64,000 nt of DNA from Nocardioides baekrokdamisoli (GTDB lineage: Bacteria > Actinomycetota > Actinomycetes > Propionibacteriales > Nocardioidaceae), in assembly GCF_003945325.1 (NCBI RefSeq), contig NZ_AP019307.1, forward strand, positions 1,674,001 through 1,738,000, read 5' to 3'. Within the stretch, counting starts at the first letter, position 1; every line of letters starts with the position of its first letter. Positions 18,156 through 53,172 of this stretch are shown here, piece by piece. The notes beneath the pieces are model-generated. The model did not search any database. It was not told the DNA's origin and worked only from the letters and a program-made list of their open reading frames with translations. The position numbers and the translations under genes were made by a program.

Positions 18156-18626
18156 ATGGTCAAGGCGAAGCGTTCAGATCTTGCGTTGGGTGGCACCGGG
18201 GAACCGATCTTCACAGTTCGGTTCATGGCCGCGCTGGCGCTGGTCGTACTCGGGCTCGCATGGGTCCTGTACTACTACTTCGGCGTGCACCCGTCGCACA
18301 ACGCGAACGCGGTCAACCCGCCGTTCCGCGGGATCCAGCCGCTGAAGTGGCTGAAGGACTGGAACTACCTGATCGGCTTCGGACTGTTCTTCCTCGGCCT
18401 GATCATCACCGCCGACAAGAGCACCCCCCTGGGTCGCAACCGTGGCGTCGTGGTCTCGATGCTCTCGTGCTTCCTCTGCGCGCTGGTATGGATCTGCGTG
18501 TTCTACATCTTCAACGGCACGCATCTGGACAAGGTCTGGGTGTTCAACGACCTCGGCCAGAAGAACCTGTTCGTCGGGTTCGGCTTCCTGATCTGCGGGT
18601 TCTTCTTCGCCACCCGGTGGGAGTGA
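18156..18626 (+). CDS. crgA: CrgA-like division protein, apparently duplicated internally
   Basis: A 156-residue protein with four membrane helices (~23-43, 69-87, 98-118, 133-152). Ordinary CrgA is about 85-95 residues with two helices ending in a WNY...TMRW-type second helix. Here the second helix DWNYLIGFGLFFLGLIIT and the fourth QKNLFVGFGFLICGFFFATR resemble each other, and the third resembles the first, so the gene looks like two CrgA units in tandem. GAGGAGGA precedes the ATG at 18156; a frame extension upstream is not supported. CrgA helps assemble the divisome (FtsZ, FtsQ, PBPs). Family call good, duplication inferred by eye. Confidence 0.8.
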   Translation: MVKAKRSDLALGGTGEPIFTVRFMAALALVVLGLAWVLYYYFGVHPSHNANAVNPPFRGIQPLKWLKDWNYLIGFGLFFLGLIITADKSTPLGRNRGVVVSMLSCFLCALVWICVFYIFNGTHLDKVWVFNDLGQKNLFVGFGFLICGFFFATRWE

Positions 18627-18662
18627 GCCTGCGCTGACTCCGATCAGCGCCCTCTTGCCTCG

Positions 18663-18692
18663 AAGCCCCGTCGGCTCAGGTCGGCGGGGTTT
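18663..18692. terminator. Probable terminator after crgA
   Basis: Imperfect 12-bp stem with G.U pairs (AAGCCCCGTCGG against TCGGCGGGGTTT) and a short loop, ending in TTT. It sits 36 bases after the crgA stop. Confidence 0.65.
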
Positions 18693-18697
18693 CGGCG

Positions 18698-18784
18698 TTC
18701 GTCCACAGGTGGTCTAGTCATCCACAGGTTATGCACGATCTGTGGAGAATTACACGTGTGTAGTTCTCCACATGACAGTCCACA
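18698..18784. promoter_or_regulatory. Cluster of DnaA-box-like sequences with a 32-bp palindrome
   Basis: Within 87 bases there are six 9-mers close to the DnaA box (TTATCCACA or TTGTCCACA): TCGTCCACA at 18699-18707, TCATCCACA at 18718, TTATGCACG at 18729, TGTGGAGAA at 18741 (reverse of TTCTCCACA), TTCTCCACA at 18764 and CAGTCCACA at 18776. The fourth and fifth are the arms of a palindrome, 18741-18772, whose centre is ACACGTGTG. The cluster lies between the 3' ends of convergent crgA and the rhomboid gene, so it is unlikely to be a promoter. Possible role: DnaA binding or titration, about 28 kb from oriC. Confidence 0.6.
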
Positions 18785-18808
18785 GCTGTGTACAAGTCGT
18801 GCTGTCGA

Positions 18809-19636
18809 TCAGCGCTGGAGGATGCGGCGGCGTCGCCCGAGAGGCGTGTACGCGTACAGCGCGCCGATCGCGAGGCCCGTGAGCAGCCCGCCGATGTGGC
18901 CCTGCCACGACACGACGTTGTGCAGCGCGAAGGTCAGGACCAGGTTCAGAGCGAGAACCGACCCCAGTTGCTGCAGGGGTAGCCCCCGACGAATGAAGAG
19001 GACGACGAGGATCCCGAGCAGTCCGAAGATCGCTCCTGAGGCCCCCAACGTGTAGCCCACCTGCGGTCCTGCTGCCACAACCAGGAGCGATCCGCCGAGA
19101 CCGCACACGAGATACGCCACGAGATAGCGCCAGCGCCCAAGGGCCTGCTCCACCAGAGGCCCGATCATCCACAGCGAGATCATGTTCGTGGCGATGTGCC
19201 ACGCCTGTTGATGGGTGAACGCCGAGGTGATCAGCTCCCAAGGGCCGCCATGCCATACGCCTGGCGCGAACGTGCCGCCGTAAGCAGCGCATCCAGCGCT
19301 GTCGAAGCCCAGCCGTGGATAACCCTGAGAGGAGCAGTAGTCGGCCAGGTGCAGGCTCAACAGGTGAGCCACAGACGGCGCGATCAGGATCAGTGCCCAC
19401 ACGGCCAGGTTGATCCCGATCAGCGCGTACGTCACCACAGGTCCCGAGGGCCCGAAGTTCAGCGGTCGGCCCTGACGGACCGACCGCTGACCCTCGCGTA
19501 CGCACTCCGGGCACTGAAAACCCACAGCCGCCGACTTCATGCAGTCGGGGCAGATCGGCCGCTCGCACCGTTGGCACCGGATGTGGGACTCCCGGTCGGT
19601 GTGCCGATAACAAACCGGCGCGGCCTCAACGCTCAT
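18809..19636 (-). CDS. Rhomboid family intramembrane serine protease with zinc-finger N-terminus
   Basis: A 275-residue protein. The N-terminal ~55 residues carry paired Cys/His (CYRHTDRESHIRCQRCERPI, then CPDC and CPEC), a B-box-like zinc-binding domain. Six membrane helices follow, with the rhomboid Ser in GASGAIFGLLG and the catalytic His in SWQGHIGGLLTG; the conserved HQQAWHIATNMISLW segment is also there. Rhomboids cut membrane-protein substrates within the bilayer; substrate unknown. Next to ppiA, same strand, 5 bp apart. Confidence 0.9.
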   Translation of the reverse strand: MSVEAAPVCYRHTDRESHIRCQRCERPICPDCMKSAAVGFQCPECVREGQRSVRQGRPLNFGPSGPVVTYALIGINLAVWALILIAPSVAHLLSLHLADYCSSQGYPRLGFDSAGCAAYGGTFAPGVWHGGPWELITSAFTHQQAWHIATNMISLWMIGPLVEQALGRWRYLVAYLVCGLGGSLLVVAAGPQVGYTLGASGAIFGLLGILVVLFIRRGLPLQQLGSVLALNLVLTFALHNVVSWQGHIGGLLTGLAIGALYAYTPLGRRRRILQR

Positions 19637-46930: not shown

Positions 46931-47338
46931 GTCGCATGTCCTTTTGTTGTCCAAAGGTCACACCCGCGCGGCTAGGCCTGCAGGTATGCGGACTTGAATC
47001 CTGCCACGAGTACGGAAGGGACGCAGCCACGAGGTGTGATGCCAGGCCGTTGGATTGAAGGTTTTCCCCAGATCGGGCGGTTGGTGGTGTTTTCGGGATC
47101 TTGGACCTAGTAACAGTACGTAGGAGTAGTAGGGCCTGTGGATCCTGTGGATGAAGGGCGTTTGTGCAGGTCATCGTGGGTGTGGGTGTGGGACGTACCT
47201 GTGGATCAAGGACGCATCGCGTGGCCCGGCGTGTGTGCGAACGACACGTTGTGGAGGGGCGTTGCGAGGACTCCGCAAATCCTCCCCGTGTAGTTCGTAC
47301 CTCCGGGGTGGGGTTTATCCACAGGACGTGGCGTGGTC
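46931..47338. other. oriC: Candidate replication origin oriC (dnaN-dnaA spacer)
   Basis: 408 bases with no gene between dnaN and dnaA. DnaA-box-like 9-mers are TGTGGATCC at 47137, TGTGGATGA at 47146 (tandem), TGTGGATCA at 47200 and TTATCCACA at 47315, with weaker TGTGGAGGG near 47250. A less GC-rich stretch (TAGTAACAGTACGTAGGAG, 47109-47127) could be the unwinding element. In Streptomyces and mycobacteria oriC lies in this spacer. I cannot prove activity. Confidence 0.75.
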
Positions 47339-51346: not shown

Positions 51347-52077
51347 CAGTGACGACCGAACTCCCCGACATTCCGGAGGTCGGTCGTTCGCTGTTTCACG
51401 TGAAACAACTGCCTCTGGTTGAGAAGTACGCAGCCTTGCTGGCCACTGACGGTGTCATCCGCGGGTTGATCGGGCCACGTGAAGTGCCCCGCCTGTGGGA
51501 TCGACACATTCTCAACTGCGTCGTGATGGCTGATCTGTTGGTGACAGATTCGACTCTCGCCGACATCGGTTCGGGCGCCGGCCTCCCTGGCCTTGTGCTG
51601 GCTATCGCGCGGACGGACGTGCGAGTCACGCTGATTGAGCCCCTGCTGCGCCGGACCACCTTCTTGTCCGAGGTAGTTGCAGAGCTGGCTCTCGAAAATG
51701 TCGAAGTCGTGCGCGGACGGGCGGACGAGCTGCATGGCAAGCGCACCTTCGACGCGGTGACTTCGCGCGCTCTGGCACCTCTGCCGCGGCTGCTCACGTG
51801 GTCGATGCCGTTGGTGGCCCAAGAGGGCAAGTTGCTCGCCCTCAAGGGATCGAACGTCGCAGATGAACTGCAGGAGGTCCGTGACGTTCTGCAGCTCGGC
51901 AGGTGTGCGGAGCCCGTCATCCACACGCTGGGCGGTTCCGACGGGTTGTCCACAACACATGTTCTTCAGGTGGCCTGGGCAGGTCCGCGCTCGGTAGATT
52001 GGCCCCCTACCCACAGAGCAGCCGGATCTGGTGCTCGTGGTCGTACGTCACGTCAAGGTTCGGGTCGGCGCAGATAG
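51340..52077 (+). CDS. rsmG: 16S rRNA (guanine-N7) methyltransferase RsmG
   Basis: Up to 245 residues. The SAM-binding core is LADIGSGAGLPGLVLAIART; upstream GPREVPRLWDRHILNC and downstream TSRALAPLPRLLTWSMPL are diagnostic for GidB/RsmG. It methylates G527 of 16S rRNA. Start is uncertain: GTG at 51340 and GTG at 51400 both fall within parS sites, with another GTG at 51349. Homology (FHVKQLPLVEKYAALLA) begins by about residue 19, which favours a start before 51400. The C-terminal ~25 residues are Arg/Gly-rich and poorly conserved. Confidence 0.92.
   Translation: MKPVTTELPDIPEVGRSLFHVKQLPLVEKYAALLATDGVIRGLIGPREVPRLWDRHILNCVVMADLLVTDSTLADIGSGAGLPGLVLAIARTDVRVTLIEPLLRRTTFLSEVVAELALENVEVVRGRADELHGKRTFDAVTSRALAPLPRLLTWSMPLVAQEGKLLALKGSNVADELQEVRDVLQLGRCAEPVIHTLGGSDGLSTTHVLQVAWAGPRSVDWPPTHRAAGSGARGRTSRQGSGRRR
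51393..51406. other. parS: parS site (consensus, inside rsmG)
   Basis: GTTTCACGTGAAAC within the 16-bp TGTTTCACGTGAAACA, the full symmetrical consensus. It encodes Leu-Phe-His-Val-Lys-Gln of RsmG. Confidence 0.95.
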
Positions 52078-52148
52078 CGCCTGGCTTATCCACCGCTTCG
52101 CCACCCGGCTCACGCGTGACATCCACAGATCAACGCAACTTATCCACA
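51917..52148. promoter_or_regulatory. DnaA-box-like cluster at rsmG 3' end and parA upstream region
   Basis: Five near or perfect boxes: TCATCCACA at 51917, perfect TTGTCCACA at 51946, TTATCCACC at 52086, ACATCCACA at 52119 and perfect TTATCCACA at 52140. The last ends ten bases before the parA start codon, overlapping the expected ribosome-binding area. This may let DnaA regulate parAB. Confidence 0.6.
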
Positions 52149-52158
52149 AGGTAGGCCG

Positions 52159-53172
52159 ATGGACGACAGCACCAGCGAGACCCCGCAAACCGACGTTTCA
52201 CGTGAAACCAGCGGCCTCGGCGGCCTTACCGCCGGCCTCGGTGCCACGCGGACGGCAGCCGATATCGCCGCGAACTCGACGCTTCTGGACGACACGGAGA
52301 CTCCTCTCGCCCGCGCTGCCGAACATTCCGTGCTGGCGCGCCAGTCCGTCTTGAACCGACCGGCCATCCCACGCCCGGCCACGCCACGCATCTTTGTGGT
52401 GGCGAACCAGAAGGGTGGTGTCGGCAAGACCACCTCGACGGTCAATCTCGCGGCGGGGCTGGCACAGCTGGGTCAGCGCGTACTGGTCATCGACCTTGAC
52501 CCACAGGGCAATGCGTCAACAGCTCTCGGTGTCCCGCACCCTGTCGGGACGCCTGGCACATACGAAGTGGTCGTCGATGGCGCGGCCATCGACGACGTGG
52601 CCGTTCCGTGCCCCGACGTGGATGGCATTGATGTGGTGCCGGCGACGATCGATCTGGCAGGTGCCGAAATCGAGCTGGTACCGGCAGTTGCACGTGAATT
52701 CCGGCTCAAGAACGCCCTCACAGCCTCCAAGCGCACGTCGCCGGACAACGAAGACCGCTGGGACTTCGTCTTCGTTGACTGCCCACCGTCGCTCGGTCTG
52801 TTGACGATCAACGCTCTGACGGCGGGCAGTGAGGTCCTGATCCCCATTCAGGCCGAGTACTACGCCCTGGAGGGCCTCGCACAGCTCCTGAACACGGTCG
52901 AACTGGCGCGGAAGGCCCTCAACCCGGTGATCAGGGTCTCCGCGATGCTGATCACCATGTACGACGCGCGTACGCGCCTGGCGGCTGGAGTCGCCGATCA
53001 GGTGAGGGACAGCTTCGGTGACATCGTCCTCAACACGTACATTCCGCGCTCAGTCCGCGTCTCCGAGGCTCCGTCGTACGGGGAGAGCGTCATGACGTAT
53101 GACCCGGGATCACCAGGTGCACTGTCGTATCTTGAGGCTGCACGTGAACTCGCTCTGAAGGGAACCAGCTGA
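52159..53172 (+). CDS. parA: Chromosome segregation ATPase ParA
   Basis: A 337-residue deviant Walker ATPase. An N-terminal ~70-residue extension includes TDVSRETSG, encoded by a parS site. The core follows: [20 protein letters not shown] (deviant Walker A), [14 protein letters not shown], and [13 protein letters not shown]. It moves ParB-parS complexes during segregation. AGGTAGG precedes the ATG. Its stop overlaps the parB ATG. Confidence 0.96.
52195..52208. other. parS: parS site (consensus, inside parA)
   Basis: GTTTCACGTGAAAC in codons for Val-Ser-Arg-Glu-Thr near residue 15 of ParA. Actinobacterial parA genes often carry VSRET here, which fits maintenance of the site. Confidence 0.95.

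Follow-up and report, generated by a model that had tools for sequence, protein, structure and literature searches.

The gap that follows crgA in the genome of Nocardioides baekrokdamisoli is best read as a DnaA-control locus that lies near the origin, is not a promoter and corresponds to the Rv0010c-Rv0011c site of mycobacteria; it probably holds a dimeric partner protein on a palindromic core, and we give this reading a probability of roughly 60%. Binding of DnaA to the site is very probable in view of its boxes and of the mycobacterial analogy, binding of a second protein to the core appears probable, and a net effect that restrains DnaA comes slightly short of even odds.

The window, i.e. 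the whole stretch of 64 kb that was analysed (G000:C1:1674001-1738000), is part of a one-contig genome of 2.97 Mb, which is smaller than the same-genus genomes compared (3.2-6.3 Mb, some incomplete). crgA and a rhomboid gene converge onto a gap of 182 bp, and oriC lies 28 kb from the cluster, the crgA-gap site thus not being located in the dnaA-dnaN gap; both the convergent setting and the distance had been given in an earlier note on this DNA and were borne out. The features are as follows.

18156..18626, plus strand: crgA (PF06781), coding for a cell-division protein that contains two CrgA stretches; the site lies 3' of its stop codon
18699..18707, plus strand: DnaA-like box TCGTCCACA, 2 mismatches to TTATCCACA
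18718..18726, plus strand: DnaA-like box TCATCCACA, 1 mismatch to TTATCCACA
18729..18737, plus strand: weak DnaA-like box TTATGCACG, 2 mismatches to TTATCCACA
18741..18772, no strand: 32-bp near-palindrome; its arms are two inverted DnaA-like boxes TTCTCCACA, with the core between them
18741..18749, minus strand: DnaA-like box TTCTCCACA, left arm of the palindrome, 1 mismatch to TTATCCACA
18747..18766, no strand: 20-bp palindromic core GAATTACACGTGTGTAGTTC of the type ACA-N4-TGT, predicted site of a dimeric protein
18764..18772, plus strand: DnaA-like box TTCTCCACA, right arm of the palindrome, 1 mismatch to TTATCCACA
18776..18784, plus strand: weak DnaA-like box CAGTCCACA, 3 mismatches to TTATCCACA
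18787..18795, minus strand: seventh DnaA-like box TTGTACACA, 2 mismatches to TTATCCACA, just beyond 18698-18784
18809..19636, minus strand: rhomboid membrane protein gene (PF01694), convergent with crgA
about 46955..47338, no strand: oriC (dnaA-dnaN gap), used as comparison region; the names dnaA and dnaN were read from the protein sequences

The six 9-mers near TTATCCACA that the earlier note had reported within 87 bp are present at 18698-18784, provided that up to three mismatches are allowed (one mismatch in three boxes, two in two and three in one), and they form the densest run in the window. Counting boxes with at most one mismatch to TTNTCCACA resulted in four within 87 bp and five within 110 bp, the top density in the 64 kb, the richest 110 bp at the dnaA promoter containing three and those at oriC two. 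First-order resampling of the window, repeated 100 times, gave a maximum per 87 bp of one box in 59 cases, two in 40 and three in a single case, as compared to the four observed. Exact copies of TTNTCCACA occur 42 times in the genome versus 18 for the reversed pattern. Four further boxes with at most one mismatch to TTNTCCACA are found at 51917-52148, just upstream of a parA-like gene at 52159.

Conservation of the boxes was followed in near relatives. The rhomboid gene is present in all 58 genomes, own included; 50 rhomboid loci were examined, and measurements of the crgA-rhomboid gap cover 40 genomes, again with our own among them. These 40 gaps contain 187 DnaA-like boxes where 5.3 are expected, each gap exceeding the mean of its own shuffles, demonstrating that the cluster is not due to chance. 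For an alignment (A1, 40 rows including our genome) 43 loci were examined, of which L010, L042 and L045 were dropped as their core was split, weak or absent; L012, L024, L043 and L047-L050 stayed outside A1, no crgA being found in the stretch examined. Throughout the 40 sequences the ACA-N4-TGT of the core and the following TT are invariant, despite rhomboid proteins of the same genus being just 44-51% identical to ours; since the best match in each stretch served as the core, column conservation is partly given by construction, the shuffles having been handled alike. The arms-around-core layout of the near-palindrome also recurs in relatives. No plasmid relatives of the gap were found. Several genomes of the genus likewise encode two CrgA stretches, a same-genus rhomboid match (G023:C1:16797-17471) contains two in-frame TGA codons, and in another genus of the family (G161, L083 centre) two palindromic cores lie close together beside crgA.

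The site extends far beyond the near relatives. Of 148 genomes sampled from the class, 141 encode a member of the CrgA family PF06781, and the stretch after crgA was examined in 90 of the 141, namely 30 returned loci and 60 genomes picked to spread over families. The first 300 bp after crgA contain 275 DnaA-like boxes in these 90 genomes, compared to 12.2 expected, and at least two boxes in 78 of them. Together with the count in the 40 gaps this is a clear outcome for the earlier note, which had named conservation of the boxes in relatives as the finding on which its reading would stand or fall. A 20-bp core like GAATTACACNNGTGTAATTC, scoring at least 10 bits and above all 200 shuffles, follows crgA in 66 of the 90 genomes, among them 9/9 genomes examined from family f7 (probably mycobacteria-like). 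A scored core is absent after crgA in the other 24, including 5/5 genomes of f22 (probably Streptomyces-like) and 5/5 of f20; these core-less families keep their boxes (31 vs 1.0 expected in f22, with 4-8 per genome, and 16 vs 0.6 in f20).

Searching the class with R1, a model built on the near relatives, gave matches in 135 of 394 genomes (E<=0.001, strict filters), and among the best 30 of these loci 27 have crgA and two more have the rhomboid gene but no adjoining crgA. These two, L073 and L075, are from small f29 genomes, and in them the element adjoins rhomboid and ppiA without crgA. One of the two f29 genomes, G101, carries crgA elsewhere, and was hence scored as core-less in the 90-genome count, indicating that the element is independent of an adjoining crgA.

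We also scanned genomes of 84,980 species with the pattern TTACACNNGTGTARTTN{1,2}TCCMCA, which yielded at least 119 matching stretches. Among the matches listed, the 80 titles are all actinobacterial (one of them Acidimicrobiia), except for one metagenome-assembled genome titled Acidobacteria. Of the 119 matches listed 68 follow crgA at a distance of 3-452 bp (median 27), 56 of these in its orientation and 12 in the opposite one; another 17 are within 1.5 kb of a rhomboid gene, 17 precede nrdR and the last 17 lie elsewhere. Eight of the 17 listed as lying elsewhere have an NrdR-box-like sequence beside the core, and the neighbours of five of these eight are two glutaredoxin-like genes (as NrdH), two NrdI genes and one gene without family match (L254). 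Nine of the 119 listed matches, e.g. L264 and L288, combine an intact-looking core with boxes away from crgA, rhomboid and nrdR, two Leucobacter genomes being among those with this arrangement. As far as sequence comparison goes, the crgA-side site is class-wide and is newly recognised here as such; open-access titles and abstract beginnings yielded no description of a class-wide site or of the shared core.

What sets the locus apart from a plain box cluster is the core. The 32-bp palindrome at 18741-18772 proposed earlier does exist, though not in perfect form: complementarity extends to 14 of its 16 base pairs (counted by eye). Its arms are DnaA-like boxes; the centre is an element of its own, which recurs at ribonucleotide reductase promoters and had been overlooked. 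In the crgA gap the core scores 33.1 bits, the next best place in the window reaching 8.7, and within these 64 kb oriC (1.7 bits), the dnaA promoter (2.9) and the stretch preceding parA (-14.7) lack it. Covariation between the two half sites is not above that of shuffles, so that an RNA hairpin was rejected; this pattern is not that of an RNA structure, but what a DNA-bound dimer would leave. The absence of the core from these three regions, together with half sites that vary independently, points to a further protein that binds DNA as a dimer. On one side of the core a box hexamer starts within 0-2 bp in 39 of the 66 class crgA sites with a core, on the other side in 16 of the 66, and at the same distance in 18/23 nrdR promoters, which suggests side-by-side binding. 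Its letters and places of occurrence set the core apart from DnaA boxes as a separate DNA element, newly recognised here.

A second home of the core is found at ribonucleotide reductase promoters. In our own genome R1 (E<=10) matches two places only, the crgA gap and a place 0.5 Mb away upstream of nrdR, which precedes nrdJ, i.e. the nrdR-nrdJ (ribonucleotide reductase) promoter. Of 20 second sites in relatives 18 have nrdR beside the core, and in the class as a whole the core reaches at least 10 bits in 42 of 69 nrdR promoters (sets of 23/40 and 20/30, with one genome common to both). A search of 24 genomes gave NrdI in 13, and a core of at least 10 bits lies upstream of nrdI in 4/4 genomes of f39, which we infer to be Microbacteriaceae-like, and in 4/9 of f7, as judged by score only, without shuffle control. 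Upstream of the core in the family's nrdR promoters (L175-L190) there are repeated CTGTG motifs about 20 bp apart.

The consensus of the NrdR box is CWANATNTWG, and we searched for it allowing one mismatch at most. Such a box is located 14-17 bp from the core centre in all 23 nrdR promoters examined (13 of them without mismatch), whereas it is found at 13-18 bp from the core in none of 66 crgA sites, so that the idea of NrdR binding the core next to crgA was rejected. NrdR boxes are known from ribonucleotide reductase promoters (PMC9110341, accessible text); they flank the core in nrdR promoters, not at crgA, and the core itself is no NrdR box. We compared the presence of the core at the two loci in 59 genomes, resulting in 28 with both, 19 with crgA only, 7 with nrdR only and 5 with neither (p=1.0), where nrdR was the sole reductase locus counted and up to 28 genomes were scanned over the whole nrdR locus, not the promoter alone. 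There is no association, hence a single partner cannot be deduced from co-presence, and the unrelated occurrence counts against a common partner.

In mycobacteria the Rv0010c-Rv0011c gap adjoins Rv0011c, which we take to be crgA. The gap resembles ours in lying near oriC and in containing a cluster of DnaA-like boxes with a small palindrome inside, and our gap has the same core as the f7 genomes, which probably represent mycobacteria. The difference is that the next gene begins downstream of the palindrome there, whereas crgA and rhomboid converge here. According to the accessible text of a 2020 study (PMC7738170) five DnaA regions were found in M. tuberculosis, each with a homologue in M. smegmatis; one of the five is this gap, at which DnaA of M. 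tuberculosis was detected by pull-down and gel shift and DnaA of M. smegmatis by ChIP-seq. DnaA binding is thus established for mycobacteria only, and as the gap is a proven DnaA site, the DnaA reading of the crgA-gap boxes is well supported. The claim of the earlier note that the locus is of DnaA type, away from oriC and not a promoter for its neighbours, is sustained by the conservation of the boxes and by the binding of the mycobacterial site in vitro and in vivo (PMC7738170). The mycobacterial palindrome is a mutation hotspot in clinical isolates, and its variants resemble dnaA variants, have longer cells and leave the initiation rate unchanged (PMC7738170). In the accessible text the core is not singled out, nor is its copy at reductase promoters, and the authors saw no obvious counterpart of the site in other species (PMC7738170).

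It may be asked if the core needs a protein other than DnaA at all. It could consist of face-to-face low-affinity DnaA sites (ACA-N4-TGT), making the whole element a single, partner-free DnaA platform, and the authors of the mycobacterial study indeed interpret the palindrome as a pair of DnaA-box-like sequences (accessible text of PMC7738170), in which case no partner is needed; that the core abuts the boxes in a nearly fixed register fits as well. However, the core is missing at the DnaA-rich oriC and dnaA promoter of the window, R1 picks out no places in its own genome other than those at crgA and nrdR, and the core half GAATTACA is a poor match to a DnaA box, and we consider a DnaA-only element unlikely. 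An ordinary transcription factor site that came to lie among DnaA boxes by happenstance has a precedent in HigA2 of M. tuberculosis, which binds ATCAC-N6-GTGAT and for which the Rv0010c-Rv0011c DnaA site is one reported site (accessible text of PMC11205783), and the f7 core of G060, GAATCACACGCGTGTGATTG, is of this form. Yet the convergent genes leave no promoter to regulate, scanning 18500-19000 gave no promoter match, and core and boxes have been conserved together in many families, making such a coincidence improbable.

The position of the palindrome directly after the stop codon would also suit a crgA mRNA that ends in an RNA hairpin or terminator, a reading made very improbable by the lack of covariation above shuffles, by the DnaA-like boxes around the palindrome and by a scan of 18500-19000 that revealed no terminator-like site; as neither scan gave a match in this interval, promoter and terminator were both rejected. 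Finally, a box density above that of oriC could be taken to indicate a second origin or helicase-loading site, the latter having been raised in the earlier note. The site is very short, however, nothing seen hints at initiation, and the mycobacterial variants, with longer cells, kept their initiation rate (accessible text of PMC7738170), so that the idea of a second loading site was given up and either version is barely conceivable.

For the preferred reading, a DnaA-control locus with a dimeric partner, the following mechanism can be proposed. The clustered boxes would load several DnaA molecules, as shown at the mycobacterial site. As the sequence pattern suggests, the dimeric partner would occupy the 20-bp core, which adjoins the boxes or lies between them, and its register relative to DnaA would be almost constant. 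Since replication reaches the locus shortly after each initiation, the complex would most likely lower or reset the amount of DnaA on hand for initiation, similar to datA of E. coli or to origin-near box clusters there; a role of the cluster as DnaA sink is plausible. Through the copies of the core in ribonucleotide reductase promoters the partner would be able to tie dNTP supply to the replication cycle. Carried to its conclusion, this amounts to an actinomycete cell-cycle switch, in which one DnaA partner binds the palindrome at the crgA site and at reductase promoters (nrdR-nrdJ or nrdHI operons), setting both DnaA activity and dNTP synthesis, an idea that we put forward as tentative.

Other bacteria provide partial parallels. 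Smulczyk-Krawczyszyn is said to have found in 2006 that a DnaA-box cluster outside oriC affects replication in Streptomyces, likewise an actinobacterium, and f22, probably Streptomyces, has boxes but no core after crgA. In E. coli datA comprises five DnaA boxes and an IHF site, and the DARS elements have three-box cores, to which DARS2 adds IHF and Fis sites (PMC4585315, accessible text). Like the crgA-gap site, datA, DARS1 and DARS2 are non-coding DnaA-box clusters away from oriC, and datA and DARS2 pair DnaA with partner sites; of the features of datA, the crgA gap has the several boxes, and its core is a candidate for the partner site. In contrast, these elements have other neighbours and another sequence and, in the accessible text, no palindromic core. 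datA acts by promoting hydrolysis of the ATP bound to DnaA, and the three-box core of DARS by promoting nucleotide exchange on DnaA. An origin-near region of E. coli with dense DnaA boxes, proposed to titrate DnaA (PMC12371093), shares the high box density near the origin that is suited to titration, but is broad instead of one short gap, and its abstract mentions no palindromic core.

The conservation throughout the class suggests that the site is a basic part of actinomycete chromosome control, not a mycobacterial oddity. The 2020 study, in its accessible text, had found a site without obvious counterpart elsewhere and left its role open (PMC7738170); a class-wide counterpart is now seen, and its occurrence outside mycobacteria offers harmless hosts for study. 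Lineages that have boxes but lost the core can serve as natural controls, and with the shared core as bait one can search for a regulator that may link replication initiation to dNTP supply.
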